From the NCBI GenBank assembly GCA_005883965.1, contig VAWL01000070.1, positions 1 through 34,343 of the forward strand: a stretch of DNA of 34,343 nt, written 5' to 3'. A program made the position numbers and the translations under genes. This stretch comes from Actinomycetota bacterium. GTDB taxonomy: Bacteria > Actinomycetota > Thermoleophilia > Gaiellales > Gaiellaceae. The notes beneath the pieces are model-generated. The model was not told where the DNA came from and did no database searches. It saw only the letters and a list, made by a program, of their open reading frames with translations. Below, piece after piece: positions 2,709 to 29,801 of the stretch. The stretch's first letter is position 1. The number at the start of each line of letters is the position of its first letter.

Positions 2709-2905
2709 GTACAGAGGATACGGACCGTTTGCCCTGGAGCCCACAATCGCCAGGTGGCAAGGTCATCCGAACGGAATCTGGCCGGCCTCAGCGCGGAAGA
2801 TGTTCGCGCAGCTTCTTCGCGATCGAGCAGGCGGACGTGGCGGCCTTCCGGCTTGCTCTTGGGCCGCGCCGCGTCGAGCGCCCCCTACGGCAGTACCATC
2901 GCCAA

Positions 2906-4174: not shown

Positions 4175-5159
4175 GCTCGCAGCGGTCCTCGAGCACGCCC
4201 GGCGGCGAACCGAGACCTTGCTCGACCCCCTCCCGGACGAGCAGCTGACGCGCCAGGTCTCGACGCTCCAGTCGCCACTCGTCTGGGACCTGGCTCACAT
4301 CGGCTACTTCGAGGAGCTCTGGTTGCTCCGAAACGGCAACGTCAACGGCAACGGGCTCGACGATCTATACGACTCGTTCGCACACGGCCGAGCCGAGCGC
4401 GGGACGCTGCCCATCCTGTCCCCCGACGACGCGCGTGCCTACGTCTCGGAGGTGCGCAGGAAGGTGCTCGAGCGGCTTCCCGAGCTGGCGGGGGACGACT
4501 TTCTTGTCGGCATGGTCGCGCAGCACGAGCTCCAGCACGTCGAGACGATGACGCAGACGCTTGCCCTCGCAGGCTTGGCCGACTCCGGGCTGCCCCGGGT
4601 CACGGCGCGCGGCGACGTCCTCGTTCCCGGCGGGCAGTTCACGTTGGGCTCGGACGACCGGTGGGCTTACGACAACGAGCGGCCGGCGCACGTCGTCGAC
4701 CTGCCGCCGTTCCGGATCGACCGTGCCCTCGCGACGAATGCGGAGTACGCGGCGTTCGTCGAAGCCGAGGGAGCAGCTGCATCGCTCCGCGCGGGTCGTG
4801 AGGACGAGCCCGTAGAGCACATCTCGTTCCACGAGGCCGAGGCCTACGCATCCTGGGCCGGCAAGCGCCTGCCGACCGAGCCGGAGTGGGAGAAGGCGGT
4901 GAAGAGCGTCGGCAAGGAGCTCGAGCACGCCCAAGGGGCGGTCTGGCAGTGGACGTCAACGTTCTTCGGCGGGTACCCGCGCTTTCGCGCCTACCCCTAC
5001 AAGGAGTACTCCGAGGTGTTTTTCGGCGACGAGTACCGAGTGCTGCGCGGCGGCTCGTGGGCGACCGATCCGCTCGTCGCCCGGCCGACCTTTCGCAACT
5101 GGGACCTGCCACAGCGCCGGCAGATCTTCGCCGGCATCCGGTGCGCATCCGATGTCTAG
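4161..5159 (+). CDS. egtB: Ergothioneine biosynthesis protein EgtB (DinB + FGE-sulfatase domains)
   Basis: 'SPLVWDLAHIGYFEELWLLR', iron-ligand-like 'QHELQHVETMTQTL', FGE-type 'LPTEPEWEKAV', 'VLRGGSWATDP...FRNWDLPQRRQIFAGIRCA'. GTG start at 4161 (TTG at 4149 possible); overlaps the upstream gene. Confidence 0.9.
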   Translation: MSPTELAAVLEHARRRTETLLDPLPDEQLTRQVSTLQSPLVWDLAHIGYFEELWLLRNGNVNGNGLDDLYDSFAHGRAERGTLPILSPDDARAYVSEVRRKVLERLPELAGDDFLVGMVAQHELQHVETMTQTLALAGLADSGLPRVTARGDVLVPGGQFTLGSDDRWAYDNERPAHVVDLPPFRIDRALATNAEYAAFVEAEGAAASLRAGREDEPVEHISFHEAEAYASWAGKRLPTEPEWEKAVKSVGKELEHAQGAVWQWTSTFFGGYPRFRAYPYKEYSEVFFGDEYRVLRGGSWATDPLVARPTFRNWDLPQRRQIFAGIRCASDV

Positions 5160-6084
5160 AGCCCCCAGCGCAGTCCGTCCGGACCTCTTCGAGGCAACTC
5201 GCCGGACCCTGCAGCGCGAGCCGAAGGAGCTGCCGCCGGTCTGGCTCTACGACGAGCGCGGGTCGCTGCTGTACGAGTCGATCACCCGCCTCCCCGACTA
5301 CTACCTGCCGCGCCGGGAGGCCGAGATTCTGGCCGCGCGCGCCCGCGCGATCGCCGCGCAAACGGAGGCGCGGACACTGGTCGAGCTCGGGTCGGGGAAC
5401 GCCAGGAACACCCGGTTTCTCCTGGACGCGCTCGAGCTCGAGCGATTCGTTCCCTTCGACGTCAGCGAGCAAATGCTGCGGACGAGCGCGAGCGCGATCG
5501 CCGAGGCGTATCCGCAAGTCTCCGTCGAGCCAATCGTGGGCGACTTCGAGCACGATCTCGGAGCGCTGCCGACCGAGGGCCCACGGCTGATCGCGCTCCT
5601 CGGAAGCACCCTCGGAAACCTCTACCCCGAGCAGCGGGCGGAGCTGCTCGCCTCACTGGCCCGGGAGCTGCGCGAGGACGACACGCTGCTCCTCGGGCTC
5701 GACCTGGTGAAGGACGCCGCCAGGCTCGAGGCTGCCTATTTCGATCGCGCCGGTGTGACGGAAGCGTTCGTCCGAAACGCTCTCGCGGCCGCCAATCGCG
5801 AGCTTGGCGCCACCTTCGAGCAGGGCCGGTTCGGCTACGAGCCGCGCTGGGATCCGGAGCACGAGTGGATGGACATCGCGCTCCGTGCACTCGAAGCCCA
5901 CGTCGTCGCAGTGCCGGAGCTGAAGCTGGAGCTCGCGTTCCGCAAGGGCGAGCGGCTTCGGGTCGAGATCAGCTCGAAGTTCCGGCGGGACGCTCTCGAA
6001 AGGGAGCTCGAGCCCGCGGAGTTGAGCGTTCGCTCGTGGTGGACCGACCGGCGGGGCGACTTTGCAGTCGCCCTCGCAAGCTGA
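5152..6084 (+). CDS. egtD: L-histidine N(alpha)-methyltransferase EgtD
   Basis: 'LPPVWLYDERGSLLYESITRLPDYYLPRREAEIL', 'LVELGSGNARNTRFLLDAL', 'LLGSTLGNLYPEQ'; overlaps egtB by 8 nt (ATGTCTAG). Confidence 0.93.
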   Translation: MSRAPSAVRPDLFEATRRTLQREPKELPPVWLYDERGSLLYESITRLPDYYLPRREAEILAARARAIAAQTEARTLVELGSGNARNTRFLLDALELERFVPFDVSEQMLRTSASAIAEAYPQVSVEPIVGDFEHDLGALPTEGPRLIALLGSTLGNLYPEQRAELLASLARELREDDTLLLGLDLVKDAARLEAAYFDRAGVTEAFVRNALAAANRELGATFEQGRFGYEPRWDPEHEWMDIALRALEAHVVAVPELKLELAFRKGERLRVEISSKFRRDALERELEPAELSVRSWWTDRRGDFAVALAS

Positions 6085-7368: not shown

Positions 7369-7467
7369 CAGCTCGGTCGGCTGCGCGAGTGTTCGCCAAT
7401 GTTCCCCGAGCCACGTCGGCGCGGTGATCCCGTCTCGTGGCCGTCCGGTATGGCGCAGAATCCGCGA

Positions 7468-8805
7468 ATGGACTCGAACGCCTCGCGCCTCCCACAGATC
7501 AGGTACGCGCGCAACGGTGGAGTCGCGATCGCCTACCAGGTGGTGGGCGACGGGGACGTCGACCTCGTCTACGTGCCCGAGTGGACGTCGAACCTCGTGC
7601 ACTGGTGGGAGTATCCGCGCTGGCGCGACTTCTACCTCCGCCTCGCCCGTTCGTTCCGGCTGATCCTGTTCGACAAGCGCGGAACCGGTCTCTCCGACCA
7701 CGGCGGCCAGTTCGCCGCCCTCGAGACGAGGATGGAGGATTTGCACGCGGTTCTCGACCACGCCGGATCGTCGAATCCGGTGATCTTCAGCGCGGACGAG
7801 GGGAGCGCGATGGCCGTCCTGTTCGCGGCGTCGTATCCGGAGCGAACGCGGGCGCTCGTGCTCTTCCACGCCCGAGCGAAGGGCTCCACCGCGCACGCCG
7901 ACGCCAAGTCACCGCAGTACCTGCCCGCTCTTCGGGAGGGCTGGGGCATCGAGGAATGGTGTGACCAGCTCTTCAGGGAAGTGTGGCCGTCGCTCGCTGC
8001 GAACGAGGACGATCGGCAGTGGTTCGCAAACTCCGTACGGCTCGGAGCGAGCCCCGCGGTCGCGTACGCGCTCAACCGTGCCTTTCACGAGACCGATCTG
8101 CGCGACGTGCTGCCCGCGGTGCACGTCCCGACGCTCCTCCTCTACCGCTCGTTGCCGGAGGAGGAGGCGGCGACGATGGACGCGGCGACCCGGATCCCGG
8201 GCGCGCGGACGATGCGCGTGTCCGGCACCGACCCGGGCGCGATCTTCCTCTCGCCCGAAATCGCAGACGAGATCGACCGGTTCGTTGCCGGCGAAGAAGC
8301 CCCGGCCGTCCCCGAGAGCGTGCTCGCCACTGTCGTGTTCACCGACATCGTCGGCTCGACCGACCATGCGGCACGGATCGGCGACCGCGCCTGGCGCGAC
8401 CTCCTGGCCCGCCACCACGCGCTCGTCCGACGGGAACTGGCGCGCTTCCGCGGACACGAACGCGACACGGCCGGCGACGGGTTCTTCGCCACCTTCGACG
8501 GCCCCGCGCGCGCGATCAGGGCGGCGCAGGCGATCGTCGACGGCGTCCGCACGCTCGGCCTCGAAGCGAGAATCGGGATCCACGTCGGCGAGTGCGAGCT
8601 CCACGACGGGAAGATCGCGGGCCTCGCCGTCAACATCGGCTCCCGCGTCGCCTCCAACGCCGGCGCAGGCGAAGTGCTCGTCTCGCAAACGGTTCGAGAC
8701 CTCGTCGCCGGATCAGGAATCAGGTTCGAAGATCGAGGCGTCCACGAACTTAAGGGAATACCCGGGAGCTGGCAGCTCTTCGCGGTCGTAGCCGCAGACA
8801 CCTGA
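7468..8805 (+). CDS. Alpha/beta-hydrolase domain fused to class III adenylate/guanylate cyclase domain
   Basis: N-terminal 'IAYQVVGDGDVDLVYVPEWTSNL...FDKRGTGLSD' hydrolase core; C-terminal 'VVFTDIVGSTDHAARIGD...DTAGDGFFATFDGPARAIRAAQAI...RIGIHVGECE' cyclase motifs. Confidence 0.9.
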   Translation: MDSNASRLPQIRYARNGGVAIAYQVVGDGDVDLVYVPEWTSNLVHWWEYPRWRDFYLRLARSFRLILFDKRGTGLSDHGGQFAALETRMEDLHAVLDHAGSSNPVIFSADEGSAMAVLFAASYPERTRALVLFHARAKGSTAHADAKSPQYLPALREGWGIEEWCDQLFREVWPSLAANEDDRQWFANSVRLGASPAVAYALNRAFHETDLRDVLPAVHVPTLLLYRSLPEEEAATMDAATRIPGARTMRVSGTDPGAIFLSPEIADEIDRFVAGEEAPAVPESVLATVVFTDIVGSTDHAARIGDRAWRDLLARHHALVRRELARFRGHERDTAGDGFFATFDGPARAIRAAQAIVDGVRTLGLEARIGIHVGECELHDGKIAGLAVNIGSRVASNAGAGEVLVSQTVRDLVAGSGIRFEDRGVHELKGIPGSWQLFAVVAADT

Positions 8806-12805: not shown

Positions 12806-14227
12806 TTGACCGCAGTCCTGAAGCCAATCACTCTTGTTGCGGAGCCCGGAGGAATGCAGTTCCGGGTCGCATTCGGGTTACGGCATCTCAGGGGAGCAGA
12901 CGGTACTCACCACCGAATAGAGGATTGGGTGGAACTAAACGAAGCCTTTCGACGGATTGTCCTGCAGCACGTGCGACTCATCGCGTGCTTCGTGATCACA
13001 GGCCTCGCCGTGGGCGCGCTCGTGCATCGCGCCACAGGGAAGACCTTTACCACGTCGGCGCGGCTGGCGCTTGACACGCAGGACCCGGCGTCCCGGACCG
13101 AAGCGGCTGCGATAGCCGACATGGGCCAGGCGATCGCGACGAGCCCAGCGCAAATCCGAGCAGCGCTCAACCGCAGTCATGTCCGTCGAGATGTCGCTGG
13201 CGTCGCGCACCACGTCGCCGTCCGACCTTTGGGGACGTCGGGCGTCCTCGAGCTCTCGTATAGCGATCGGACCTCGCACGGCGCGAAAACCGTGGCGGAC
13301 GCGCTGGCCGCTCAGCTGATCCGGACTCGCCTCGCGATCAGCAACGGCGAGCTCCAGCGGGCCCTCTCTGCAAGCACCGGACAGATCGACGGCATCAATC
13401 GCAAGATCGCCGAGCTCGACGCAACGGCCGCGTCAGACCCGGCGGCCGCTGCACAACGGGATCTCCTTGCACAACAGCGTTCGACGATCGAGAGCGAGCG
13501 TGCAACTCTCCTTTCGAGCGCAGCGCTACGACCGAAGCCGTCGATCATCAGCCCTGCAGTTCTCCCCACGCACGCGACTACTTCCGGTCTGATCCCGTAC
13601 ATGACGCTTGGCGCGATCTTCGGCCTGATACTCGCACTCGGCACCGCCGGCCTGGTGGAGATGATCCGACCCACAGTCGTCGGTGAGGACGCCCTCGCCC
13701 GGGAATTCGATGCGCCACTTCTGGGCAGGTTGTCGGGGGTGCCCGGTCAGGCGTCGCTGGTGGCGGACACGACGTCATTGGCCGACCACATCAGGCTCGC
13801 CAGTGAAGGCTCCCGGGTACACGGTGTCTGGCTGGTCGGTGCAGGGCCTTCGGTCGACCTGAGGTCGCTCGCTGTCGCGCTCACACGTTCCGGCGATTCC
13901 AACGGCTCGTCCAGGGCTCCAAAGGCAGCCAACGACCCACATGCGCGGGGCGTCACGGTCGACGTATTCGATGCGCACACGTGGTCGCCGAACGGCGGAG
14001 GTGCGGGCGTGGTCCTTGTTTCGCCGCTCGCCCTCAAGAAGGAAGATCTCATCGAGACAAATCAACTTCTCGAGCTGAGCAGGTTGCCGGTCCTGGGTCT
14101 GATCACGTATGACGGCGAACGCCCGTGGCGGCCGGGCCTACGCCCTGTCGACCCGGTCGGCAAGGGTGTGACAAAGCCGGCTCAGCAGAGCGGCCTAGAG
14201 AAGGTCACTCGCTCGAGCTCGCGTTGA
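12806..14227 (+). CDS. Wzz/chain-length-determinant-like protein with a degenerate BY-kinase-like cytoplasmic region
   Basis: TTG start after GGGGAGG; N-terminal TM 'LIACFVITGLAVGALVHRATGKTFTTSARLAL', coiled periplasmic region, second TM 'IPYMTLGAIFGLILALGTAGLVEMIRPTVVGEDALAREFDAPLLGRL'. Walker A not present. Confidence 0.75.
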   Translation: MTAVLKPITLVAEPGGMQFRVAFGLRHLRGADGTHHRIEDWVELNEAFRRIVLQHVRLIACFVITGLAVGALVHRATGKTFTTSARLALDTQDPASRTEAAAIADMGQAIATSPAQIRAALNRSHVRRDVAGVAHHVAVRPLGTSGVLELSYSDRTSHGAKTVADALAAQLIRTRLAISNGELQRALSASTGQIDGINRKIAELDATAASDPAAAAQRDLLAQQRSTIESERATLLSSAALRPKPSIISPAVLPTHATTSGLIPYMTLGAIFGLILALGTAGLVEMIRPTVVGEDALAREFDAPLLGRLSGVPGQASLVADTTSLADHIRLASEGSRVHGVWLVGAGPSVDLRSLAVALTRSGDSNGSSRAPKAANDPHARGVTVDVFDAHTWSPNGGGAGVVLVSPLALKKEDLIETNQLLELSRLPVLGLITYDGERPWRPGLRPVDPVGKGVTKPAQQSGLEKVTRSSSR

Positions 14228-14261: not shown

Positions 14262-16304
14262 ATGCCGGCCCTCCCGGGCGTGCGTCGCCTAGTTGCCTTC
14301 CTCGCAGGAGCTGTGCTGATCGGGTACATGATCGTCGCCCTCGGCACCGCAGCCGGCAAGCCCTTGGGCGGTCGTCCGTCGGCGCCGGCCGAGGCTGGCA
14401 AGGCGCCACGGCATCGGTACATGATCAACTCGGGCTCGAGCGCGCCGCTCGTCGCGTCCTATGGCTGGAACCTCCTCGACGTCAGCTCGAAGTGGAGAGC
14501 CGACCGGCTCCCGGGCAGGACGCGCGGCCTGGTGTGGCTCGGCGATTACGACAATTCCACTTGCGGGTGGCAAGTCTCCGATGACGAGCTTCGAAGCGAA
14601 GTACAGCGGATGGCTCGCGATCGAAAGGTCTTTGGGTTCTACATCTCCGACGAGCCCGATCCGAACGCGTGCCCGGCGGCGCCGGCACAGCATCGAGCAC
14701 GCACGCAGCTCATACACGCGCTCAGTCCGGGCAAGCCGACGATCCTTGTCGTTGACTCGAATTCGGGTCGAGCGACTCTCGAGCAGATCCCGAAATGGGT
14801 AGGCGCAGCCGACATTCTCGGGCTCGATCCGTATCCGTGCTACCGGGGCAAGCGGTGTCATTTCGACTGGATTGGCAGGGTCATCACGGCCGCCAACAAG
14901 GCGCGAGTGCCGTATTGGGGAGTGGTGCAGGCCTTCGCCGACTCGACCTGGCGCTGGCCGACGAACGCCGAGGAACGGCACATGCTCTCGCAATGGGCAG
15001 CGTCGAGGCAGTCCGGCTACATGACTTTCAGCTGGAGATGGGACGGCCATAGCCTCACGCAGCAGCGAGGCTTGCTCGACGTCTTCAGGCGCTTCAACCG
15101 ATCCGCGCCCGGCGTACGTTCCACAGGGCGAAGCACGGGACTACGGCCAGAGCGGACGCTTGGTGGCACGGCCACGGAGCTGCATTACACCTACGCCGGT
15201 CCGAACTCCGTGACGTTCGACTGGACGGGAACGGCTCGCTCCGTTCGCTACGGGCCTACGACGCGCTACGGGTCGGTTGTTCCCGCCCGCCACCCGAGGA
15301 TCACGCCCTTTTCGTCGAAGGGGCCATTCTGGCAGGCGACGATCACTGGATTGCAGCGCGGGAAACGGTATCGCTACGCGGTAGGCCGGGTGAAGTCCGC
15401 TTTTTCGACCCCGCCGGTAGGCCGGTTTCGGTTCGACCTCGAAGCCGACGTCGGGGCATCCAGTGACTACGACGCCGTCAGCGTGACCCAGAAACAGATT
15501 TTCGCGGACAACCCGGCCTTCGTGATCCTCGCCGGGGACCTCTCGTATGGAAACGATCACGGCCAGCCGGCGGTCGACAGGCATTTCAACGACGTGATGG
15601 CCTGGAGTCGCCGTGCCGCATACATGGCCGCCTGGGGCAATCACGAATGGGACGAGTCGACGGACGACCTCCGAAACTACAAGGGGCGAATCGGAATCCC
15701 ACACGGGCACGCGTCTCCTGGCGCACCGGGTGAAGGGTGCTGCGGCGCGGATTGGGGCTGGTTCGATGCCGGCGGAGTGCGGTTCATCTCCTATCCGGAG
15801 CCCTACACCGATGCGACGTGGACCGACTGGCAACGGAAGGCCGTGCGGCTGATGGCGGCCGGTCAACGCAATCCTCGGATCCACTTCATCGTGACCTTCG
15901 GCCATCGACCCGCCTACTCCACCGGGCACCACCCTGGCGACAAGTCACTCGCGTCGATTATCGACGCCCTCGGAGACCGCTATTCGAAGTACGTCTTGAA
16001 TCTGAACGGGCACTCTCACGACTACGAGCGTTTCGTGCCGATCCACCACGTTGTGCAGATATCGGCCGGCGCCGGCGGCTCGAGTCTGGAAGCGTGGTCG
16101 CGTGGCCCAGACTCTCGTACAGCCGTCCGCGCTCTGCACCTGGAGCATTTGCGAGTGGACGTGAGCGCCAGCAGGATGCGAATCGAGGCCGTGTGCGGGC
16201 CGCCCTCCTCAAGCCAGGGCATCAGTTGTCGGCTGGGAACGGTGATCGACTCGTACACAATCCGCACGCCCCGCCGAGCGCAGGTGAAGGCGAGAGAGGG
16301 CTGA
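14262..16304 (+). CDS. Two-domain secreted protein: glycoside-hydrolase-like TIM-barrel region fused to purple acid phosphatase-like metallophosphoesterase
   Basis: N-terminal TM; 'VFGFYISDEPDPNAC...ADILGLDPYPCYRGKRC...WGVVQAFADS'; C-terminal PAP motifs 'DVGAS', 'GDLSYGND', 'GNHEWD', 'VTFGHRPAYS', 'NGHSHDYER'. Confidence 0.8.
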   Translation: MPALPGVRRLVAFLAGAVLIGYMIVALGTAAGKPLGGRPSAPAEAGKAPRHRYMINSGSSAPLVASYGWNLLDVSSKWRADRLPGRTRGLVWLGDYDNSTCGWQVSDDELRSEVQRMARDRKVFGFYISDEPDPNACPAAPAQHRARTQLIHALSPGKPTILVVDSNSGRATLEQIPKWVGAADILGLDPYPCYRGKRCHFDWIGRVITAANKARVPYWGVVQAFADSTWRWPTNAEERHMLSQWAASRQSGYMTFSWRWDGHSLTQQRGLLDVFRRFNRSAPGVRSTGRSTGLRPERTLGGTATELHYTYAGPNSVTFDWTGTARSVRYGPTTRYGSVVPARHPRITPFSSKGPFWQATITGLQRGKRYRYAVGRVKSAFSTPPVGRFRFDLEADVGASSDYDAVSVTQKQIFADNPAFVILAGDLSYGNDHGQPAVDRHFNDVMAWSRRAAYMAAWGNHEWDESTDDLRNYKGRIGIPHGHASPGAPGEGCCGADWGWFDAGGVRFISYPEPYTDATWTDWQRKAVRLMAAGQRNPRIHFIVTFGHRPAYSTGHHPGDKSLASIIDALGDRYSKYVLNLNGHSHDYERFVPIHHVVQISAGAGGSSLEAWSRGPDSRTAVRALHLEHLRVDVSASRMRIEAVCGPPSSSQGISCRLGTVIDSYTIRTPRRAQVKAREG

Positions 16305-16321: not shown

Positions 16322-17314
16322 ATGTCCTACTGGAGTGGTCGCCGCGTGCTGGTCACCGGCGCCGGGGGTTTCATCGGTAGCCACGTTTGTGAGTTGCTCG
16401 TCGGCGCCGGGGCAAGCGTCCGCGCGTTTGTTCGCTACAACTCTCGAAACGACTACGGGTGTCTCGAGTTCTGCGAGCCAGAGATGAGGGAAGAGCTCGA
16501 GATCTTCACTGGTGATCTCGCAAACCCCGAGGCGGTCGCCGGAGCGGTCGCTGGGTCCGACGTTGTTCTCCATCTCGGCGCGCTCATCCCGATTCCCTAC
16601 TCGTACCGGCACCCGAGGGAGTTCGTAACAGCCAATCTGGAAGGAACCCTCAACGTGCTCGAAGCCACGCGTCGGCTGGAGGTTTCGCGGATCGTCCAGA
16701 CTTCGACCAGCGAGGTATACGGGACGGCGATGAGTGTTCCGATTCCGGAGCACCATCCGCTCCACCCCCAGTCGCCATACGCCGCGTCCAAGGTCGGCGC
16801 GGATCAGCTGGCGCTCTCGTACGGGAGATCGTTCGAGACGCCGGTCGTCGTTGCCCGTCCCTTCAATACTTTCGGTCCGCGCCAGTCGGCTCGGGCGGTG
16901 ATTCCGACAGTCATCACGCAGGCGCTCTCGCGCGAGGCGATCGAGCTCGGGTCAACCTCGCCCACCCGTGACTTCGTCTACGTGGAAGACACCGCGCGCG
17001 GGATCATCCGTTGCGCAGAGGTCGACGACGCCCTGGGTGAGGTGATCAACCTCGGCACCGGAGTGGAAGTTTCGATCGGTGGGATCGTCGAGCGGGTGCT
17101 GGCGCTCGTCGATCGCCAGCTGCCTGTGCTCGTCGCCGAGGATCGACTTCGGCCACCCCACAGCGAGGTCGAACGGCTGATCGCCGACCGCAGCAAGGCA
17201 CGCGCGATGCTCGGCTGGGAGCCTGCCATCGATTTCGACGAGGGGCTTCGTCGCACGATCGAGTGGCTCCGCGGCTCGCTTGCCGTGTACAAACCGAGCA
17301 TCTACAACGTCTGA
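16322..17314 (+). CDS. NAD-dependent epimerase/dehydratase, nucleotide-sugar 4,6-dehydratase-like (LegB-like)
   Basis: 'RVLVTGAGGFIGSHVCELL', 'TSTSEVYGTA', 'SPYAASKVGADQL' (YxxxK), 'RPFNTFGPRQSARAVIPTVI', 'SPTRDFVYVEDTARG'. Confidence 0.85.
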   Translation: MSYWSGRRVLVTGAGGFIGSHVCELLVGAGASVRAFVRYNSRNDYGCLEFCEPEMREELEIFTGDLANPEAVAGAVAGSDVVLHLGALIPIPYSYRHPREFVTANLEGTLNVLEATRRLEVSRIVQTSTSEVYGTAMSVPIPEHHPLHPQSPYAASKVGADQLALSYGRSFETPVVVARPFNTFGPRQSARAVIPTVITQALSREAIELGSTSPTRDFVYVEDTARGIIRCAEVDDALGEVINLGTGVEVSIGGIVERVLALVDRQLPVLVAEDRLRPPHSEVERLIADRSKARAMLGWEPAIDFDEGLRRTIEWLRGSLAVYKPSIYNV

Positions 17315-17355: not shown

Positions 17356-19713
17356 CTAAGGGGAAGCGATGAAGGCGTCGTCCGCGTAGAAGACAGCGCC
17401 GGGCGCAGCTTTCGCGACGTAGACGTTGAAATCCAGCGTGGAGGCACCGGGCGCAACAACGGTGTGCGTCACGGAGACTTGTTGCCACGACGTCGTCAGG
17501 GCCACCTGTGCGCTCGTCGTCCCCACCAACGTCGAACCATTGTACTCCCGGAACCTGAGCGTGATTATCGCGCCGGGCGTGTCCGCGCGAACCCAGATGC
17601 CGCCTACATAATTGCCCGGCAGCGTCGTCTTCACCCAGTTCGGAGAGTCGTTGAGGTCGGCTGCACTCGCCGTCGTACCGGTGTTCGTGAGCTGAGCAGC
17701 CCAGCCGCCAGAGTGGCTCCCCGCTACTCGTGTGAGGACGATGTTCGCGCCCGAGCCGGAGGTGTTCCAACCGGACAGATCCGTCTCGAAGCCCGGGTTT
17801 TTCACCAGGTTGGCCGCAGCACTGACGGTGACCTGAGAGCTCGCGCTCGACGACTGCCCGGCCGTATCCGTCACCGTCACGGTGACGGTGTAGGTGCCCG
17901 CCGCTGGGTAGCTGTGGTCGGCGCTCGCTCCTGCCTGGGGGCCGACCGTTGCCGAACCGTCGCCGAAGTCGAAGCTGTAGCTGGCGATCGGCGTGGCGTC
18001 AGTGTCGCTGGACCCGGATGCATCGGCAGTGACCTCAAGTGGCGCAGGGCCCGAGGAGGGACTGACCGTCAGCGCCGCATTTGGCGGCGAGTCGATCGTT
18101 GCGGCGCTGACGGTGGCTTGCGAGCTGGCGCTCGACGACTGGCCGGCCGTGTCCGTCACCGTAACCGTGACGGTGTAGGTGCCCGCTGCTGGGTAGCTGT
18201 GGTCGGCGCTCGCTCCTGCCTGCGGGCCGACCGTCGCCGAGCCGTCGCCGAAGTCGAAGCTGTAGCTGGCGATCGGCGTGGCGTCGGTGTCGCTCGACCC
18301 GGATGCATCGGCCGTGACCGTAAGCGGCGCAGGGCCCGAGGAGGGACTGACCGTCAGCGACGCGGACGGGGGCGCGTCGAGGGTGCTCGGCTGGAACTCG
18401 AATGCACCGGCATCGTCATAGGTGCGAGGGCCGGCACCCGTGTTTGGCGTAGCAGGGTCGTCGATCCGAGGAAGATCCTCGGCGTCCAGGGCGGGCTGCC
18501 CGCTCGTACCTGAATCTGCGTAATCGATCGCGGGGGAGCCGGCGACGAGGTGGAAGTCACGCGCGCCGATGTCGCGCCACTTCGGGTCGGCGTCGAGGCC
18601 GTGGCTCATCTGCCCGCTTGTGGCCTGGTAGGCGGCCAACGTGGTGTAGCTGACCGAGTTCCAGATCAAGAGCGTGTCCGGTGTCGTCAGGTGGACGACG
18701 TTGTAATCCACTGTCGTACCAGCCGTGGACCCGCTCTCGACGCGGATGTCACTGTGTGTCCGCGGACTCCTGATTCCGTTGTCGACGCTGATGTTGTTCA
18801 TGATCGTGCCGCCTGTTGAATTGCCCTCGAGGTTGATCCCGGCGGTCACGTTCTTGTAGACGGTGTTGCCGATGATTCGCTGGCCGGTGGTGCGCAAGTC
18901 GTCGATTCCGTGGTCGCCGTTGTTGTACGAAACATTGTTGTAAATCAGGGTGTCGTTCGCGCCTGAATACGACTCAATGCCGGAGTCCTCGTTGTCGTGC
19001 GTGATGTTGTTGTCGACGACGTTCGCGGTCGACTCATAGATGCGGATGCCCGGCGCCGCACGCTCGAACCCGCGGGCGTTCCTGAACGTTTCGTTTCCCC
19101 GCACCTCGTTTCGCGTTCCACCGACCACCATGATTCCGGCATAGCTGTTGTCGTGGCTCTTGTTCCCCACTATCAAGGAATCGGTTGAGTTGTTGAGCCG
19201 GATTCCTGCGCGGGTCATGCCGCTCGTCTGGAAGCCGGCGTAGCTCACGTTGTTGTTCGAGATCGTGATGGACGACGAGCTCGACACGGTGATTCCGTAG
19301 TCAGGGGTATTCGTCACCGTGAACCCGTCGACCGTGATCCAGCTCCGGCCGGAGATCACGAACCCGTTCGTTCCCCCCGTCACCGTTACGGTCGCGCCGG
19401 GCGCGGCCCTGAGAGCGATCGGCGCAGTCGGGGTCCCGGACTTCGAGATCGTCACCTTCTCGGAGTACGTACCCCCTGCTACCTGCACCGTCTGCCCCGG
19501 GGCGACTTTCGCAACGGCCGCGCCGATCGTGCAGAACGGTGCGGCTTGCGCGCCGCTCCCAAAGTCCGAGCAGCTGGGACTCGCACCGTCGACGTAGAGC
19601 GTCGTCGGAGACCCGCCGAGCGCGGGCGAAATCGAGGTCAGGACCAGCGCAACTGCCACAGCGCAGAGTCCGAGCGCTGCCGACCGCGGGCGAGGACGAA
19701 ATCGACGCAGCAT
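17356..19713 (-). CDS. Secreted right-handed beta-helix protein with two PKD domains and C-terminal carbohydrate-binding-like domain
   Basis: Signal peptide; 'DGASPSCSDFGSGAQAAPFCTIGAAVAKVAPGQTVQVAGGTYSE' pectate-lyase-like start, parallel beta-helix NNxVxxN repeats, two 'SYSFDFGDGSATVGPQAGASADHSYPAAGTYTVTVTVTDTAGQ' PKD domains, 'NLVKNPGFETDLSGWNTSG' CBM-like domain. Confidence 0.87.
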   Translation of the reverse strand: MLRRFRPRPRSAALGLCAVAVALVLTSISPALGGSPTTLYVDGASPSCSDFGSGAQAAPFCTIGAAVAKVAPGQTVQVAGGTYSEKVTISKSGTPTAPIALRAAPGATVTVTGGTNGFVISGRSWITVDGFTVTNTPDYGITVSSSSSITISNNNVSYAGFQTSGMTRAGIRLNNSTDSLIVGNKSHDNSYAGIMVVGGTRNEVRGNETFRNARGFERAAPGIRIYESTANVVDNNITHDNEDSGIESYSGANDTLIYNNVSYNNGDHGIDDLRTTGQRIIGNTVYKNVTAGINLEGNSTGGTIMNNISVDNGIRSPRTHSDIRVESGSTAGTTVDYNVVHLTTPDTLLIWNSVSYTTLAAYQATSGQMSHGLDADPKWRDIGARDFHLVAGSPAIDYADSGTSGQPALDAEDLPRIDDPATPNTGAGPRTYDDAGAFEFQPSTLDAPPSASLTVSPSSGPAPLTVTADASGSSDTDATPIASYSFDFGDGSATVGPQAGASADHSYPAAGTYTVTVTVTDTAGQSSSASSQATVSAATIDSPPNAALTVSPSSGPAPLEVTADASGSSDTDATPIASYSFDFGDGSATVGPQAGASADHSYPAAGTYTVTVTVTDTAGQSSSASSQVTVSAAANLVKNPGFETDLSGWNTSGSGANIVLTRVAGSHSGGWAAQLTNTGTTASAADLNDSPNWVKTTLPGNYVGGIWVRADTPGAIITLRFREYNGSTLVGTTSAQVALTTSWQQVSVTHTVVAPGASTLDFNVYVAKAAPGAVFYADDAFIASP
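17822..18360 (-). repeat. Near-identical tandem duplication encoding two PKD domains, period 285 bp
   Basis: Copy A starts at 17822 and copy B at 18107; encoded domains differ by only a few residues. Confidence 0.8.
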
Positions 19714-19873: not shown

Positions 19874-20605
19874 GTGATTGCCATTTGGCCCACGGCGCCG
19901 CGCGCGCAAAGCGTGAACGCGAGCCGCTTGATCGACATCGCCGTCGCCGGCGCGTTCTTGCTCGTCTTAATGCCTCTCTTGCTCGTTATCGCCGCCGCAA
20001 TTCGGATCGACAGTCGGGGGCCGATTTTTTTCCGCTGTCGCAGGGTCGGTTTTCGCGGCGCCGAGCTGCAGATGCTGAAGTTTCGGAAGATGCGCGACGG
20101 CGCCCCCGGCGACGCCGTGACGCTCAGCACCGATGAGCGGTTTACCTCAGTTGGGCGCGTTCTCGCCAGGACGAAGCTCGATGAGCTACCCCAGCTATGG
20201 AACGTCCTCAAGGGCGAGATGACGCTCGTCGGCCCACGGCCGGAAGATCCACAATTCGTCGCGCTCCGCAGCGACGACTACGCAACGCTTCTGACGGTGA
20301 AGCCGGGAGTGACCGGCTTCTGTCAGCTCGCCTTCGCCAAGGAGGGCGACGTCCTCGACCGCGAGGACCGGGTCCGGGACTACGTCGAACGGCTGTTTCC
20401 GCAGAAGGTGGCGCTCGACCTGCTGTACGTCAACCGGCGCTCGCTGCTGCTCGATCTCCGCATTCTCGCCTGGACGTCAGCGGCCGTGGTTGGAAGGCGC
20501 GACATCGCCGTGGACCGAAGCACCGGCGCGCTGGGAGTTCGGGAACCACGCGGCGAGAAGGCGGCCGTTTCAGTGCCTGCCAGAGGGGTTGGACTGGAGC
20601 AGTGA
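19874..20605 (+). CDS. Bacterial sugar transferase (initiating polyprenyl-phosphate phosphoglycosyltransferase, small monotopic type)
   Basis: 'RLIDIAVAGAFLLVLMPLLLVIAAAIRIDSRGPIFFRCRRVGFRGAELQMLKFRKM...LARTKLDELPQLWNVLKGEMTLVGPRPEDP...KPGVTGFCQL' hallmark motifs. Confidence 0.93.
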   Translation: MIAIWPTAPRAQSVNASRLIDIAVAGAFLLVLMPLLLVIAAAIRIDSRGPIFFRCRRVGFRGAELQMLKFRKMRDGAPGDAVTLSTDERFTSVGRVLARTKLDELPQLWNVLKGEMTLVGPRPEDPQFVALRSDDYATLLTVKPGVTGFCQLAFAKEGDVLDREDRVRDYVERLFPQKVALDLLYVNRRSLLLDLRILAWTSAAVVGRRDIAVDRSTGALGVREPRGEKAAVSVPARGVGLEQ

Positions 20606-21414
20606 CCGAGGGGGTTTTGGACCTTCGCGAAGACCTCGCCGCCCGGGCACGCCGACGACGCCCCCTGAAGGCGGTAGTCCTCGCGGGCGGAATGGGCACT
20701 CGTCTCGCTCCGTACACGTCGGTGCTACCCAAGCCGTTGATGCCGATCGGCGACCGCTCGATTCTCGAGCTGGTTCTCGGGCAGTTCGCCGCCTGCGGGA
20801 TCACCGACGTCACCCTCTGCGTCGGGCACCTCTCGCACCTGATCGAAGCCGTGCTCGACAACCGCCCCGAAGACGGTGTCGAGATCAAATTCGTGCGCGA
20901 GGACGAGCCTCTCGGCACGGCGGCGCCGCTAAGACTCGTCGATGGGTTGGACCGGACCTTCGTCGCGATGAACGGAGACGTCCTGACGACGCTCCCCTAC
21001 GACGGGTTCCTTCGGCACCACCGACGCAACCGCAACATCGTGACGATCGCGACGCGAGAGCGCACTACGCAGATCGACTATGGCGTCCTCTACCTCTGCG
21101 GGAATGGCCGGCGGAATCAGGTCGCGTCTTACGACGAGAAGCCGCAGATGACCGCGACCGTGAGCATGGGCATCTATGCCATTGAACCGGCGGCCCTGGC
21201 CTACATCCCCCGGAGAGGCCGCTTCGACTTCCCGGATCTCGTGAAGGCCCTTCTGCGGGCGGGAGAGAAGGTCGGCGTCTATCGCCACGACGGGCTCTGG
21301 TTCGATATCGGCCGGCCAGACGACTACGAAGAGGCCGTCGCGGCCTGGGTCGAGATGCCGACGCCTTCGTTGGCGGTAAGGGCCGTTTCCTCCGCGGCAT
21401 CACAGGGAGCCTGA
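20602..21414 (+). CDS. NDP-sugar nucleotidyltransferase
   Basis: 'LKAVVLAGGMGTRLAPYTSVLPKPLMPIGDRSILE', 'FVAMNGDVLT', 'WFDIGRPDDYEEA'; GTGA overlap with upstream stop. Confidence 0.92.
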   Translation: MTEGVLDLREDLAARARRRRPLKAVVLAGGMGTRLAPYTSVLPKPLMPIGDRSILELVLGQFAACGITDVTLCVGHLSHLIEAVLDNRPEDGVEIKFVREDEPLGTAAPLRLVDGLDRTFVAMNGDVLTTLPYDGFLRHHRRNRNIVTIATRERTTQIDYGVLYLCGNGRRNQVASYDEKPQMTATVSMGIYAIEPAALAYIPRRGRFDFPDLVKALLRAGEKVGVYRHDGLWFDIGRPDDYEEAVAAWVEMPTPSLAVRAVSSAASQGA

Positions 21415-21417
21415 ACC

Positions 21418-22629
21418 ATGGCGACCCGAAGCGTCGAGCCCAGTCTGCGAACGACTGCCCGGACGGTAGCCGCTCCGCGCGACGAACCCGCCTGGAGCGT
21501 GCCGCTTTCGGACGTCCTCGTGGACGAGGAGATCGAGGACGCCGTCGCACAAACTCTCCGCTCGGGCTGGTGGAGCTCGGGCCCACGGGTTGCTGAGCTC
21601 GAGCACGAGTTCGCTCGTTTCTCCGGGGCGCGACACGCGTTGGCGGTGGCCAACGGCACGGCGGCGCTACACCTCGCGCTGCTCGCTTCTGGCTGCGGCG
21701 CGCAAGATGAGGTGCTCGTGCCCTCGCTCAACTTCGTAGCGGCGGCGAACACGATCGTTCATACGGGCGCTACGCCCGTGTTCTGCGACATCTGCGGCGG
21801 AGACGACCTCAACGTCAGCCCCGAGGATCTCGAGGCTGCGATCGGTCCTCGGACGCGTGCAGTCGTCGTTATGCACTACGGCGGACACCCGTGTCGAATG
21901 GACGCGATCCTCGAGCTCGCAGCGGAGCACGAGCTTGCCGTCATCGAGGATGCGGCGCACGGGCCGGGAGCACGGTGGGGAGAGCAGATGTGCGGGACGA
22001 TCGGCGACGTCGGCTGCTTTAGCTTCTTCTCGAACAAGAACCTGCCGATTGGCGAGGGCGGAATGGTCGTCACCGATGACGACGCACTCGCGGAGAGGGC
22101 GCGCCTGCTGCGTTCGCACGGGATGACCACGCTCACGTGGGATCGGCACCGCGGGCACGCTTCGAGCTACGAGGTCGTCATGGCAGGCTTCAACTACCGA
22201 CTGGACGAGCTCCGCGCGACGATCGCGCTTGTGCAGCTCGGGCGCCTCGAGCGGCAGAACGCGGAGCGCGCCCGGATCGTCGACCTCTACCGGGCCGCAC
22301 TCGACGGAACGAACGGCCTGTCCATGCCGTTCGCACCGCGCACCGACGTCACGTCCGCTCATCACCTGGCCGTGGTACTGCTGCCAGAGGGTTGCGAGCG
22401 GGCGCGGTTCCGGGGTTCACTCATGGAGCGGGGAATCCAGACGAGCGTCCATTACCCACCGATTCACCGCTTCCGGGCCTATCGGGAGTTCGCGACACGT
22501 CGGGTGCTGCCACGCACAGAAGCCGTCGCCGAACGGCTCGTGACCCTTCCGCTCTTCCCACACATGTCGAGCGACCAAGTGTGGGCGGTGACCGACGCGG
22601 TGGCGTCTGCGACTGAAAGCGTGACATGA
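21418..22629 (+). CDS. DegT/DnrJ/EryC1/StrS-family PLP aminotransferase
   Basis: 'SGWWSSGPRVAELEHEFARFSGARHALAVANGTAALHLAL', 'VIEDAAHGPGARW', PLP-lysine motif 'FSFFSNKNLPIGEGGMV'. Confidence 0.93.
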   Translation: MATRSVEPSLRTTARTVAAPRDEPAWSVPLSDVLVDEEIEDAVAQTLRSGWWSSGPRVAELEHEFARFSGARHALAVANGTAALHLALLASGCGAQDEVLVPSLNFVAAANTIVHTGATPVFCDICGGDDLNVSPEDLEAAIGPRTRAVVVMHYGGHPCRMDAILELAAEHELAVIEDAAHGPGARWGEQMCGTIGDVGCFSFFSNKNLPIGEGGMVVTDDDALAERARLLRSHGMTTLTWDRHRGHASSYEVVMAGFNYRLDELRATIALVQLGRLERQNAERARIVDLYRAALDGTNGLSMPFAPRTDVTSAHHLAVVLLPEGCERARFRGSLMERGIQTSVHYPPIHRFRAYREFATRRVLPRTEAVAERLVTLPLFPHMSSDQVWAVTDAVASATESVT

Positions 22630-23954
22630 GCTCCGTCGATCTCGCGGGAGCTAGGGGCCTGCTTCGCCCGGCCAAGCCGAGGGCGGCCCTGCGGCTGGGG
22701 GATCGCCTGAACGTGCTCGACCGGGCGCGCACGCCCGTCGTGTTCGCCGCGGCCGCGGTGGCACTGCTCCCGCTGCTCCGCCCGGGCGGCCCGGGAGCCA
22801 CGGCTCCAGTCGATCTCCTCATCGCATTCGCGCTCGCCGCCTGCGTCTTCTGGGGTGTCAACAGCGAGGAGCGGTGGCATTTCCCCTACGCCTTCGCGAT
22901 GTTTCTGTTCCTCGGGGGTGGAGTGGTTGGGGCTCTTGCCGGCCCGGTGCCTGTTGCCGGAATCACGGCACTGATCCAGGACGTGTTCTTGCTCACGTGG
23001 TGCTGGGCGGTCCTGAACATCTGCATCTCGACCAGCAACATGAGGATTCTCCTCCGAACCTGGGCCTACAGCTCGATCGTCTGGGCGAGCCTGCTCTTCC
23101 TAGGGCTCGCAACCGGAACGACCGCCCTCACAGGACGATCGTCCAACGAAGCCGGCAGGACGATGCTCACGTTCGGCAGTCCGAACGTGGCTGCGAACTA
23201 CCTGTTCATATCGGTGATGGTGATCTGGGCGACCGGTCACCCCCGGCGGCGGCTATTCCGGTTCGCCGGGTACGGCCTTCTTGTCGCCGCTCTCATTTCG
23301 ACCGGCTCCAACAGCGGCATCCTCTCGCTCCTGATCGGCGTCGCGATCGCCGCACTCCTCGGCGTCTATCGGCGAGCGGGCACGATCGCGACCGTTACGA
23401 CGCTCTGTTTTCTGTTGCTCGGCGGATACGCGGTCGCCGCCACCCTCAGCGTCAAGAGCATCCAGGACAGGGCTCACTACAGCCGCTATGCGTTCATTCG
23501 TGACGGCATCGGCCGCCAGGCGGAAAGCGTCGCTCAACGCGGCTCGATTCTGCACGAGAGCATCCACCTGTACCGAGTGGGAGGGCCGCTCGGCGCCGGC
23601 CCGGTTTCGACGAAAGCGCGGCTCCGAGCGGAGCAGGCCCCGTTCGTCAAGGAGGCGCACGACGACTACTTCGCCGCCCTGAACGAGCGAGGGGTGCTGG
23701 GCTTTCTGGGTCTCGCCCTTCTGCTCGGGGGCGTCATGCTCCGGGCCCTTTCCATTCTCAAGAAGCCCGTGGCGACACGCGAGCTTCCGATGGATCTCGT
23801 CCGACCAAACGCGATCGTCGGCGCGATCGCCGGAACACTGGTCGCAATGGCGCTTTCCGAGCTTCTCCACGATCGACACGTATGGGCACTCTTCGCATTC
23901 GTGGCGGCGTTGGCCCTCCGGCGGAGGCAATGGCACAGCTCAGAACCTTCGTAA
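22626..23954 (+). CDS. O-antigen ligase/polymerase-like multi-TM protein (Wzy-like)
   Basis: About 10-12 hydrophobic segments, a large loop, 'HDDYFAALNERGVLGFLGLALLLGG' typical of Wzy/WaaL proteins; ATGA overlap with the aminotransferase gene. Confidence 0.8.
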   Translation: MSSVDLAGARGLLRPAKPRAALRLGDRLNVLDRARTPVVFAAAAVALLPLLRPGGPGATAPVDLLIAFALAACVFWGVNSEERWHFPYAFAMFLFLGGGVVGALAGPVPVAGITALIQDVFLLTWCWAVLNICISTSNMRILLRTWAYSSIVWASLLFLGLATGTTALTGRSSNEAGRTMLTFGSPNVAANYLFISVMVIWATGHPRRRLFRFAGYGLLVAALISTGSNSGILSLLIGVAIAALLGVYRRAGTIATVTTLCFLLLGGYAVAATLSVKSIQDRAHYSRYAFIRDGIGRQAESVAQRGSILHESIHLYRVGGPLGAGPVSTKARLRAEQAPFVKEAHDDYFAALNERGVLGFLGLALLLGGVMLRALSILKKPVATRELPMDLVRPNAIVGAIAGTLVAMALSELLHDRHVWALFAFVAALALRRRQWHSSEPS

Positions 23955-25231
23955 GGCGTCGCAATAGCGTCCTCGGCGCGAACATCGCGGCCCGGATCGC
24001 CGCGCTCGTCTCGTTGTCGGTCGCAACACTGTTGGTCGCACGGACCACCGGCCCGGCAGGCGTCGGGGTCTACGCGCTTCTGCGGGTGCTTCCAGGCTTA
24101 GCCGGGGTGGTTCTCTCCGCAGGTTTGCCAGGCGCCACGACCTACTTCCTGGCCGGGCCGGAGCGAGAGAACAAAAGGCTGCCTATGACGCTGGTCGCGA
24201 TGGCCCTCGCCGGCGGCTTGCTGGGAACGGGGCTCTGGGCGCTCGGGGCGCCGCTACTGCATGCCACGCTTTTCCCGCGGCTTTCGCTCCCCCTCATCCT
24301 CCTCGCCGGTGTCACCGTCCTGACACAGCTCATCGTCGCGACCGCGAAGTCGTGTTCGCAGGGGACGGACGACCTCCCCGGGGCGAACCGGGTCATCGTC
24401 AACGAGGAGTTCATGTTCCTACCCGCCTACGGGGCGCTATGGGGCCTCGGTGTGCACGGCTATGCGGCTTCGATCTGGGGTCTTCTCTTTGCGGACGTCG
24501 TCACTGCCGTCTTCGGCACGGGACGCCTTGCCAGGAGAGGGTTCTTCCGCGAGGCCGCTCGACCCTCCATCGACCTTGCAAGGCGCATCGCCGGCTACGG
24601 TCTGCGCGCCCAGGTCGGAGGCATTCTGACTCTCCTGAACCTGAGGCTGGACTTTCTTCTGATCAGCGTGTTGACGGGGCCGGCAGTGCTCGGTGTGTAC
24701 GCAGTGGCCTCGAAGTTCGCAGAGCTCGTGAAGATCCCCCCACTGGCGCTGACCTACGTTCTGTACCCCAAGTACGCGCGGGACGACCAGCAGACCGCTG
24801 CCGCGAAGGCTCGCAAGCTGCTCCCCAGAGCTGGGTTGCTCGCGGCAGGAGCCATCGTCCCTGTCTGGTTCGCCGCGACGCTGCTGATTCCGGCGCTCTA
24901 CGGGTCTGACTTCAAGGGCGCGATCACTCCCGCTCACATAATCCTGGTTGGGCTTGCGCCCCAAGGGATCGCCGCGGTGATCACCGCCTTCCTGTATGGC
25001 GTTGGGCGACCCGGCTTGAACTCGTTGGGGATGGCCGTCGGACTGGCCGCGACGGTCGTCCTCGATCTCCTGCTGATTCCGCGTTTCGGAGCGGTTGGCG
25101 CGGCAAGCGCCTCCGCCGTTGCCTACGCGTCGAGCACGCTTGCTCTGGTTTGGCTCTTTGGCTGGGTCAACCGGCCGACGCGCACGGCTGCCTGGCGAGA
25201 TGGGAAGAGCCTCTCGGGAGCGGACGCGTGA
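23930..25231 (+). CDS. Polysaccharide flippase (Wzx/MATE-like)
   Basis: 'NSVLGANIAARIAALVSLSVATLLVARTTGPAGVGVYALLR...GLPGATTYFLAG', multi-TM throughout; overlaps the wzy-like gene. Confidence 0.87.
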   Translation: MAQLRTFVRRRNSVLGANIAARIAALVSLSVATLLVARTTGPAGVGVYALLRVLPGLAGVVLSAGLPGATTYFLAGPERENKRLPMTLVAMALAGGLLGTGLWALGAPLLHATLFPRLSLPLILLAGVTVLTQLIVATAKSCSQGTDDLPGANRVIVNEEFMFLPAYGALWGLGVHGYAASIWGLLFADVVTAVFGTGRLARRGFFREAARPSIDLARRIAGYGLRAQVGGILTLLNLRLDFLLISVLTGPAVLGVYAVASKFAELVKIPPLALTYVLYPKYARDDQQTAAAKARKLLPRAGLLAAGAIVPVWFAATLLIPALYGSDFKGAITPAHIILVGLAPQGIAAVITAFLYGVGRPGLNSLGMAVGLAATVVLDLLLIPRFGAVGAASASAVAYASSTLALVWLFGWVNRPTRTAAWRDGKSLSGADA

Positions 25232-27435: not shown

Positions 27436-28188
27436 CTACTCCGCCAGCGATGCCAACTCGTCGACCAGGGTAGCGACGTCCGCTTCAAGTTGGCCTGACC
27501 CGCCGTTGCGAACTCTCCGTAGCAACGGGCCGGATAGCTCTCCGCCGAGGCCCACGTTCTCCGACAGCAGCTTGTCGAGCAGATCGGCACCGCGCACGAG
27601 GGCTGCTTGACGTTCAGCGGCTTCCATCCGGTCGAGACGTCCCGCGCGTGCCTTTCTCGACGCCATGCGCGCTTGGATCAGTCCGAGCGGCGCCTCCACG
27701 GCTACAACGACGTCGGGCAGCGGCACCGCCGAGGGCGGACCCACGAGAAAGGTGGACGAGTAGTCAGGTATGACGCGTTCGTCTCCGGCGAAGCCGATCG
27801 ACCACAGCAGCTGGTAGATCCCCTCGTCCAGTAACTCGACTACCGGCCGGTTTCGAGCACGCCGCAGAAGACCAACGAGGAAGAGCCAGTTGTACAGGAG
27901 CCTCAGGACGTCCACACGGCTTTGCTGGCCACTTCCGATCAGGGCCCGCCCGACTTTCGCAGCGCGCCCAGGACGCCCCAGCGCCTCCATTGCGCAGATG
28001 CCAGACTTATAGAGCACGCGCCGCGACCTGCCGAGTTCGTGGTTGATCCGCAGAGCCGAAGATCGGGCCGGGGTACCTACCGCAGCGAGGCGTGCGGCGA
28101 CAAGCCGCGTCGCGTGAGACTTGCCGACACCTGGCAGGCCGACGAACTCGACGACCAGAGGCTGCGTCAAGGTCAGATGGCCGGCCAC
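27436..28188 (-). CDS. P-loop kinase-like protein (thymidylate kinase-like fold)
   Basis: 'LVVEFVGLPGVGKSHATRLVAARL' Walker A; 'VVVAVEAPLGLIQARMASRKARAGRLDRM' nucleotide-kinase lid-like region. Confidence 0.75.
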   Translation of the reverse strand: MAGHLTLTQPLVVEFVGLPGVGKSHATRLVAARLAAVGTPARSSALRINHELGRSRRVLYKSGICAMEALGRPGRAAKVGRALIGSGQQSRVDVLRLLYNWLFLVGLLRRARNRPVVELLDEGIYQLLWSIGFAGDERVIPDYSSTFLVGPPSAVPLPDVVVAVEAPLGLIQARMASRKARAGRLDRMEAAERQAALVRGADLLDKLLSENVGLGGELSGPLLRRVRNGGSGQLEADVATLVDELASLAE

Positions 28189-29801
28189 AGCCGCCGCTTC
28201 ACCTCGAGCATCACCGCGGCGAGGTCGTAGTCGGCATCGATGTCGATCACGCCGGACGACGCATTGTCGAACCGCAGGTTCCTGACAAGTTGCGTCCGGA
28301 ACGCAAGCTCCCTCGGATCATCGCCGGGTCTCCGCGCAGCAGCCGTTTCTTGCGTGACGTTAAGACGAACGACTATGTCGGGCGGAATGGTCTCAGCCAG
28401 TTTGTAGATCCCGTCCTCCCAGCGCGACAGCACCCGCTTCACACGTGCCGGCGACTCCCTCCACGTCCACAGGAGAGGCCCGTCGTTGACGCCGTCAACC
28501 TGGGTCTGCGGGTATCGATCGCAGATGACTATGAAGCCCCGCTCCCGTGCCCGGGCCACCATCCTGAGCTTCCAGCGCTTCTCACGAGCAAGCGCGAGAG
28601 CCCACACCGCACGCTTGAAGCCGATGTCGCGCGTCCGACGCTGCTCGGGGTCCATACGGGTCGAGCGTGTGCGGCCACGCGTGAGCTCGAGGACAACCCT
28701 CATCGGCCAGCGCAGGATCGAGGACCGACCTTGACCGCTTCCGAAATAGATCTGAACGACGTCGACCTTTCCTACCAGCCAGGAATAGAGCATCTGGCTG
28801 ACAGAGGACTTCCCGGCGCCGTCGCTGCCGATGACAGCGATCACGGTGCCGCCACCCGGACCGGAGCGCGAGTACGGGAATGGACGGTGGAGGTAGCGGC
28901 GGTTGATGCTTCCAACCACCCATCTGAGCTCGCGAGCCCATCGATGGAGGAGCGCGGGCAGCGGCCGGTAGCCGCGGAACACCGTCGGGCTCCGGAGTAG
29001 CTCGCGACGCAGGCGCTTCAGCCGATTGAACGACAGGTCTTGAGCGATCGCCAGCCCTACGAGGTCGCCTGCTCGAGGCCCGAGAAGCCGGTTGGCGTGC
29101 TCTTTCGGAGCCGCGGGGTCGACCCGCGCCGCCAACCAGGAATGCTCGCTCCGTAGCCCGCCGGACTCGCCGCGGCCGGACGCGACTCGAGCGGTCAATC
29201 GATCGCGCCACCTGATCTTGAGCGCGGATCGGCACACGAGCAACAGCCACTCGAGCCCTGGGTCGGCCACGAAAAGTCCAGTCGATTCGTCGAGAACTCG
29301 TCTCGTCAGAAATTCGCGCTCCCACGGGAGCCGATAGTTCTTGAAAAAGCGTTCCCCGACGATCAACCGATAGTGCAGGTGGAGATGCAAAAGACGGCCC
29401 GTGCGCTCGTCCGTTGCAAAGAAGTCCTCGACGCCCGGATACGCCCGCGAGGGGTGAGCCGGAAATCGCTTGAAGCCGTGCCGAGCGAGAAGGACTGCGA
29501 TGAGCTCGCTCTGCCCAGCGTCGCACAGCACATCGAGATCCGTTGAGCCCTCCAATCCTGCCGCGACCTGCGCACTACTCTTGAAGTTGCAGTAAAGGAC
29601 GCCGTCCTGATTCAGGGCTTCGAAGAGTCGTTCCGAGGTCGTGGTGGCCAGTGCCACGGGATTCCTTATTCCCCTAACCACTGAATCCGGATGCCGGCGT
29701 ACATCGCTGAGTGCCGAGTCGTCCGGATGCGGTGGCGCGCGTTCATTTCCGCTCATCCTCGCTGCGGTGGCAGGCGACGACAAGCCGCCCACCGCGACCA
29801 T
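28173..29801 (-). CDS. Fusion of nucleotidyltransferase-like domain and thymidylate-kinase-like P-loop domain
   Basis: N-terminal 'LEGSTDLDVLCDAGQ...RFPAHPSRAYPGVEDFFATDERTGRLLHLHLHYRLIVGERFFKNYRLPWEREFL'; C-terminal Walker A 'VIAVIGSDGAGKSSVSQML' and 'GFIVICDRYP'. Start may be internal (ATG at 29756). Confidence 0.75.
   Translation of the reverse strand: MVAVGGLSSPATAARMSGNERAPPHPDDSALSDVRRHPDSVVRGIRNPVALATTTSERLFEALNQDGVLYCNFKSSAQVAAGLEGSTDLDVLCDAGQSELIAVLLARHGFKRFPAHPSRAYPGVEDFFATDERTGRLLHLHLHYRLIVGERFFKNYRLPWEREFLTRRVLDESTGLFVADPGLEWLLLVCRSALKIRWRDRLTARVASGRGESGGLRSEHSWLAARVDPAAPKEHANRLLGPRAGDLVGLAIAQDLSFNRLKRLRRELLRSPTVFRGYRPLPALLHRWARELRWVVGSINRRYLHRPFPYSRSGPGGGTVIAVIGSDGAGKSSVSQMLYSWLVGKVDVVQIYFGSGQGRSSILRWPMRVVLELTRGRTRSTRMDPEQRRTRDIGFKRAVWALALAREKRWKLRMVARARERGFIVICDRYPQTQVDGVNDGPLLWTWRESPARVKRVLSRWEDGIYKLAETIPPDIVVRLNVTQETAAARRPGDDPRELAFRTQLVRNLRFDNASSGVIDIDADYDLAAVMLEVKRRLWPAI

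Follow-up and report, generated by a model that had tools for sequence, protein, structure and literature searches.

The locus analyzed here raises the question of why a phosphatase is joined to a domain resembling glycan-cleaving enzymes among polysaccharide synthesis genes, and on what such a protein would act. The window, meaning the whole 34,343-nt stretch of DNA that was analyzed, is an entire contig (G000:C130) of a metagenome-assembled genome of 2.3 Mb that is 82% complete and comes from a soil actinobacterium. A sequence-only reading had proposed that one of its genes codes for a secreted bifunctional protein, in which a barrel cleaves and a purple acid phosphatase (PAP) dephosphorylates a phosphorylated glycan, and had taken two kinase-like genes in the same block as an argument for this. 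The fold, the phosphatase and the glycan context of that interpretation were borne out, whereas cleavage as an ordinary glycosidase and the argument from the kinases were not.

Architecture of the fusion gene

The fusion ORF has an ATG start and no internal stops, and it is a real gene coding for a real fusion (Table 1). Full-length homologues were found at 68% (L026) and 60% (L027) identity, and the codon composition is gene-like (GC3 0.78), indicating that this is not a chance ORF. The translation contains FYISDEPDPN and LDPYPCYRGKRC in the N-terminal half, and DVG (396), GDLSY (425), GNHE (459), FGHR (546), and GHSHDYER (583) in the C-terminal half. With its hydrophobic leader, the protein is probably exported or membrane-anchored. 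The full-length model was of moderate confidence (pLDDT 74.5, pTM 0.56) and does not fix the relative placement of the two halves.

Table 1. Features of the fusion gene and its surroundings, in window coordinates.
Feature	Position	Strand	Remarks
Wzz-like chain-length protein gene	12806..14227	+	34 bp upstream of the fusion; weak family matches: EpsF, ChnLen, Wzz
Fusion gene, 680 aa	14262..16304	+	Hydrophobic N-terminal segment, (beta/alpha)8 barrel, beta-sandwich, PAP
Hydrophobic N-terminal helix, residues 5-30	14274..14351	+	Putative signal peptide or membrane anchor; sequence and full-length model
Clan GH-A-like (beta/alpha)8 barrel, residues ~53-280	14418..15101	+	AlphaFold, Foldseek, alignment A6; no Pfam/NCBIfam family
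E131, end of beta4	14652..14654	+	Aligns with the acid/base Glu in the NEP motif of GH5 mannanases
Q223, end of beta7	14928..14930	+	Position of the clan GH-A nucleophile Glu; model and alignment
PAP N-terminal beta-sandwich, residues ~304-395	15171..15446	+	Pur_ac_phosph_N 307-384, below the Pfam cut-off; model strands
PAP catalytic domain, residues ~388-645	15423..16196	+	D396, D426, Y429, N460, H548, H584, H586
NAD-dependent sugar-nucleotide epimerase/dehydratase	16335..17314	+	Directly downstream; start approximate, domain from ~16343
Right-handed beta-helix with two PKD domains	17356..19713	-	Homologous to the part C-terminal to PAP in other actinobacteria
Nucleotidyltransferase, DegT aminotransferase, Wzy-like polymerase, Wzx-like flippase	20197..25231	+	Polysaccharide genes
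Two P-loop kinase-like genes	27436..29801	-	P-loops present

The phosphatase half

PAPs share five motifs, DxG, GDxxY, GNH[E/D], VxxH, and GHxH, with seven metal ligands (PMC2553084). By its sequence the C-terminal half is a member of this group, since all seven ligands are present, as are all the motifs quoted in the sequence-only reading. The ligands are conserved across alignment A4, except that Tyr is replaced by Leu in one relative (L043). The fourth motif reads VTFGH with its spacing off by one, and its His aligns with the plant ligand. In Pfam, Metallophos matched residues 395-588 above the cut-off (E 1.9e-9), and the N-terminal PAP family matched below it (E 3.7e-5). In a search with a profile of 11 C-terminal halves, wheat PAP phytase scored 1.1e-13 and lupin PPD1 2.3e-12, and a Foldseek search with the full fusion model placed plant PAPs first (best E 1.5e-19). 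The predicted structure is that of a PAP with its N-terminal beta-sandwich. Judged from its motifs, the phosphatase half looks intact, suggesting that it is active.

The presence of a plant phytase among the closest solved PAPs fits an explanation by phosphate scavenging, in which phytate-like organic phosphorus is the source from which the PAP releases phosphate, and the barrel does no more than tether the PAP to the matrix of the cell itself, as the beta-helix/PKD part may do elsewhere. The barrel residues and the gene neighborhood bear on this explanation as well.

The barrel and its missing nucleophile

A prediction from an alignment of 13 N-terminal domains gave a barrel of eight strands alternating with helices (AlphaFold; pLDDT 90.5, pTM 0.84), so the barrel fold suspected from the sequence is present in the model. 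In a Foldseek search against the PDB, the best match was GH158 (6pal, E 1.1e-7), followed by GH2, GH164, GH18, GH128, and GH53; most of the list belongs to clan GH-A, with a few non-GH TIM barrels lower down. The TM-scores were moderate (0.5-0.65), and the predicted (beta/alpha)8 barrel is thus placed near clan GH-A without a family assignment. Pfam and NCBIfam scans of the first 300 residues gave no usable match, and a single-sequence search of PDB sequences returned chance matches only. The barrel profile gave a weak GH5 mannanase match among PDB sequences (E 0.003), with the catalytic NEP Glu over E131. Membership in GH128 (PF11790) was considered and rejected, with no Pfam match and a profile-profile probability of 0.4% (the GH128 alignment held two sequences). 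The same genome has another polysaccharide-type locus (L118, G000:C30), where a GH-A-like protein with both NEP and TEYG motifs is encoded beside a sugar transferase gene.

In clan GH-A, the acid/base residue follows beta4 and the nucleophile follows beta7 (PMC7157763). In a 19-row barrel alignment that includes rhizobial and Myxococcota proteins and extends down to about 25% identity, only E131, P132, Y191, and Q223 (window numbering) are invariant. By alignment, E131 is the acid/base Glu; the residue before it, which in clan GH-A is usually Asn, is Asp in most rows and Asn in some. The nucleophile Glu after beta7 is lacking by the same alignment: Gln stands there in 19/19 rows, at a position assigned from strand order and DSSP and not from superposed coordinates. 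Judged by position, then, the barrel lacks the second catalytic Glu. E237 (domain numbering E187) was weighed as a candidate for this carboxylate, but it was set aside since the rhizobial relatives carry Gln at that site.

These residues bear directly on the earlier proposal of a bifunctional hydrolase, with the barrel as an ordinary retaining glycosidase that cleaves the glycan and the PAP as the enzyme that removes phosphate from it. The clan GH-A-like fold and the conserved beta4 Glu agree with it, and exopolysaccharide clusters often encode glycosidases (PMC9075953). However, GH-A enzymes carry the nucleophile after beta7 (PMC7157763), and the E297Q variant served to identify the nucleophile of Bs164 (PMC7105311), whereas Gln is the natural residue in every aligned relative of the barrel. 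Thus the barrel is not a canonical retaining glycosidase, and we regard this proposal as improbable. An absent nucleophile would suit the binding role that phosphate scavenging assigns to the barrel, but the invariance of E131, Y191, and Q223 down to about 25% identity is more than a mere anchor needs.

Recurrence of the barrel with phosphoesterases

The barrel-PAP fusion was found in four loci: the window, L026, L027, and L091, the last ended by a contig edge. L027 is from the Thermoleophilia and of the same family as the window, while L028 and L089 are from the Thermoleophilaceae of the same class. In L089, barrel and PAP are separate genes in opposite orientation about 1.3 kb apart, with an epimerase between them in a Wzx/Wzy cluster; in trees this split pair clusters with the fused ones, and the trees do not give the direction of change. 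The barrel is also paired with a different metallophosphoesterase, which shares only a short stretch with the window PAP (36%). In G177 it is fused to this enzyme twice (L075/L086 and L084/L087) and once lies about 1 kb from one (L088); in L085 one lies about 1.6 kb downstream of the barrel. In L085, a PF04185 phosphoesterase gene (2147-3226, minus strand) adjoins the barrel gene, with a CBM96-metallophosphoesterase gene beside it. In another family of the phylum (L096), the barrel is followed by a metallophosphoesterase, but an assembly break interrupts the phosphoesterase part, and this case was not counted.

A survey of 399 genomes of the class showed the barrel in 12 (two of them weak), the PAP subfamily of the window in 6, and the cognate Wzx in 8. 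All 6 PAP-subfamily genomes hold the barrel, unfused in three of them. With the three fused genomes left out, the barrel is still present in 3/3 PAP genomes (hypergeometric 8e-6), and it is present in 6/8 cognate-Wzx genomes (5e-9), both values treating the genomes as independent, though they are related. The barrel lies on the same contig as the cognate Wzx, within about 8 kb, in 5 genomes. No barrel relatives were found in phages. Members of the family occur on Mesorhizobium and Bradyrhizobium plasmids, annotated as calcium-binding or hypothetical proteins and without a phosphatase (L139 4980-6320, L140 4959-6134, L141 5004-6287).

Domains are freely shuffled in exported multidomain proteins. 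The fusion could accordingly be incidental, with two secreted domains brought together in an accretion-prone cluster and no functional coupling, and relatives of either half do occur alone. We consider this very unlikely, since the barrel is paired with two phosphoesterase subfamilies, the split form lies in one cluster, and PAP and barrel co-occur in 6/6 genomes.

Gene neighborhood

The fusion lies inside a polysaccharide cluster, as the sequence-only reading had it; the cluster is of the Wzx/Wzy type, and this placement recurs in relatives, including L026 and L089. Beyond Wzx, the window also contains a second epimerase and a glycosyltransferase. The gene order wzz-fusion-epimerase-beta-helix is kept in L026, where the downstream epimerase has a homologue at 78%, and L133 has the order wzz-PAP-beta-helix with a PAP lacking the barrel. 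Two findings that would speak against a glycan-related fusion, a missing barrel fold and occurrence only outside glycan loci, were looked for, and neither was obtained: the fold is present and the fusion occurs in glycan loci.

In Nocardioidaceae, Nonomuraea, Kribbella, and Terrabacter, the beta-helix/PKD part and the PAP form one polypeptide. In Nonomuraea and Kribbella, the scanned neighbors of the PAP relatives include no polysaccharide genes. The L091 fusion, at its contig end, has an aspartate-kinase-like gene about 2 kb off on the readable side, and methylmalonyl-CoA mutase is encoded near L090, a locus with the barrel alone. The housekeeping genes of L091 and L090, like the neighbors scanned in Nonomuraea and Kribbella, argue against a strict link to polysaccharides. 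The two scanned loci of soil actinobacteria, where beta-helix/PKD-fused PAPs lie outside polysaccharide clusters, also favor phosphate scavenging, but the fusion of the window is tightly set between wzz and the epimerase. Overall, we see phosphate scavenging as possible but rather unlikely.

The two kinase-like genes had been read as fitting a phosphorylated glycan. In 11 related genomes holding the barrel, the PAP or the cognate Wzx, the larger gene was not found (0/11), and the smaller gave one weak 29% match, on another contig. Since these genes are not conserved with the fusion, they lend no support to a shared phosphorylated substrate.

Other genes of the window include ergothioneine-type genes (2729-6084), namely an FGE-sulfatase/DinB (EgtB-like) gene and a histidine-specific methyltransferase (EgtD-like) gene; next to these lie genes for an FAD oxidoreductase and an L,D-transpeptidase. 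The stretch at 7399-8805 combines an alpha/beta-hydrolase-like region with an adenylate/guanylate cyclase domain, and a 47% homologue of it adjoins the barrel-phosphoesterase fusion in L087.

Proposed function

Based on predicted folds, motif conservation, recurrent pairing and gene neighborhood, we infer export, phosphatase activity, the polysaccharide of the surrounding cluster as the substrate, and the role of the barrel. The fusion would be exported or membrane-anchored and would act on the exopolysaccharide from the Wzx/Wzy-type cluster. The barrel may form a clan GH-A-like glycan site that grips the polymer, with the general-acid Glu kept and Gln at the nucleophile position, and the two-metal PAP would strip phosphate either off the glycan itself or off a phosphorylated partner nearby. 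With Gln at that position, either any bond breaking is non-canonical or the barrel only recognizes and positions the glycan; a possible non-canonical route would be substrate-assisted, via the adjacent Asp/Asn130-Glu131 pair. We give a protein whose barrel holds the cluster's exopolysaccharide while its PAP removes phosphate about an even chance of being the correct explanation. A further suggestion, which we hold to be unlikely, is that the Glu-Tyr-Gln barrel represents an undescribed family of glycan-active enzymes without the GH-A nucleophile (e.g., substrate-assisted on N-acylated sugars), and that polysaccharide maturation couples it functionally to PAP-type phosphatases.

Taken together, a barrel family that lies outside Pfam, has its nucleophile naturally replaced and is found again and again with phosphoesterases suggests that some step by which bacteria build or use exopolysaccharide depends on phosphate. 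The recurrent pairing in two forms, often near slime-polysaccharide genes, points to an uncharacterized step in finishing or using the polymer.

Comparison with known systems

The occurrence of glycosidases in polysaccharide clusters is known, and to our knowledge no phosphatases are coupled to them. We know of no exopolysaccharide-operon enzyme of the PslG, PelA or AlgL type with a PAP. Neither a PAP-glycosidase fusion nor a PAP sited in an exopolysaccharide cluster came up in a literature search of incomplete coverage. The glycosidases PslG and PelA and the lyase AlgL are encoded in exopolysaccharide operons (PMC9075953). The fusion resembles them in being a glycan-enzyme-like protein coded within a polysaccharide cluster, a likeness of context, and differs in that its barrel lacks the nucleophile and it carries a PAP.

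The closest solved structures are plant PAPs (lupin PPD1 3zk4, wheat PAP phytase 6gja, and kidney bean PAP 1kbp). The fusion shares with them the beta-sandwich, the two-metal catalytic domain, the five motifs and the seven ligands including Tyr, but it is bacterial, about 17% identical, extended at its N terminus by the barrel and a hydrophobic leader, and set among polysaccharide synthesis genes. The same barrel is found in uncharacterized proteins encoded on rhizobial plasmids, some annotated as calcium-binding, and in a Myxococcota MAG (L049). In these proteins E, Y, and Q are likewise invariant; they differ in their identity of about 30-38% and in having no phosphatase domain in the proteins examined. 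With clan GH-A glycosidases (GH158 6pal, GH128 6ufz, GH2, GH164, and GH5 mannanases), the barrel has in common the (beta/alpha)8 fold and the beta4 acid/base Glu after Asp/Asn. Unlike them, it has Gln at beta7, is shorter (about 230 aa), shows 8-16% identity and matches no family. Its naturally replaced nucleophile makes it a natural test case for glycosidase chemistry that does without this residue.
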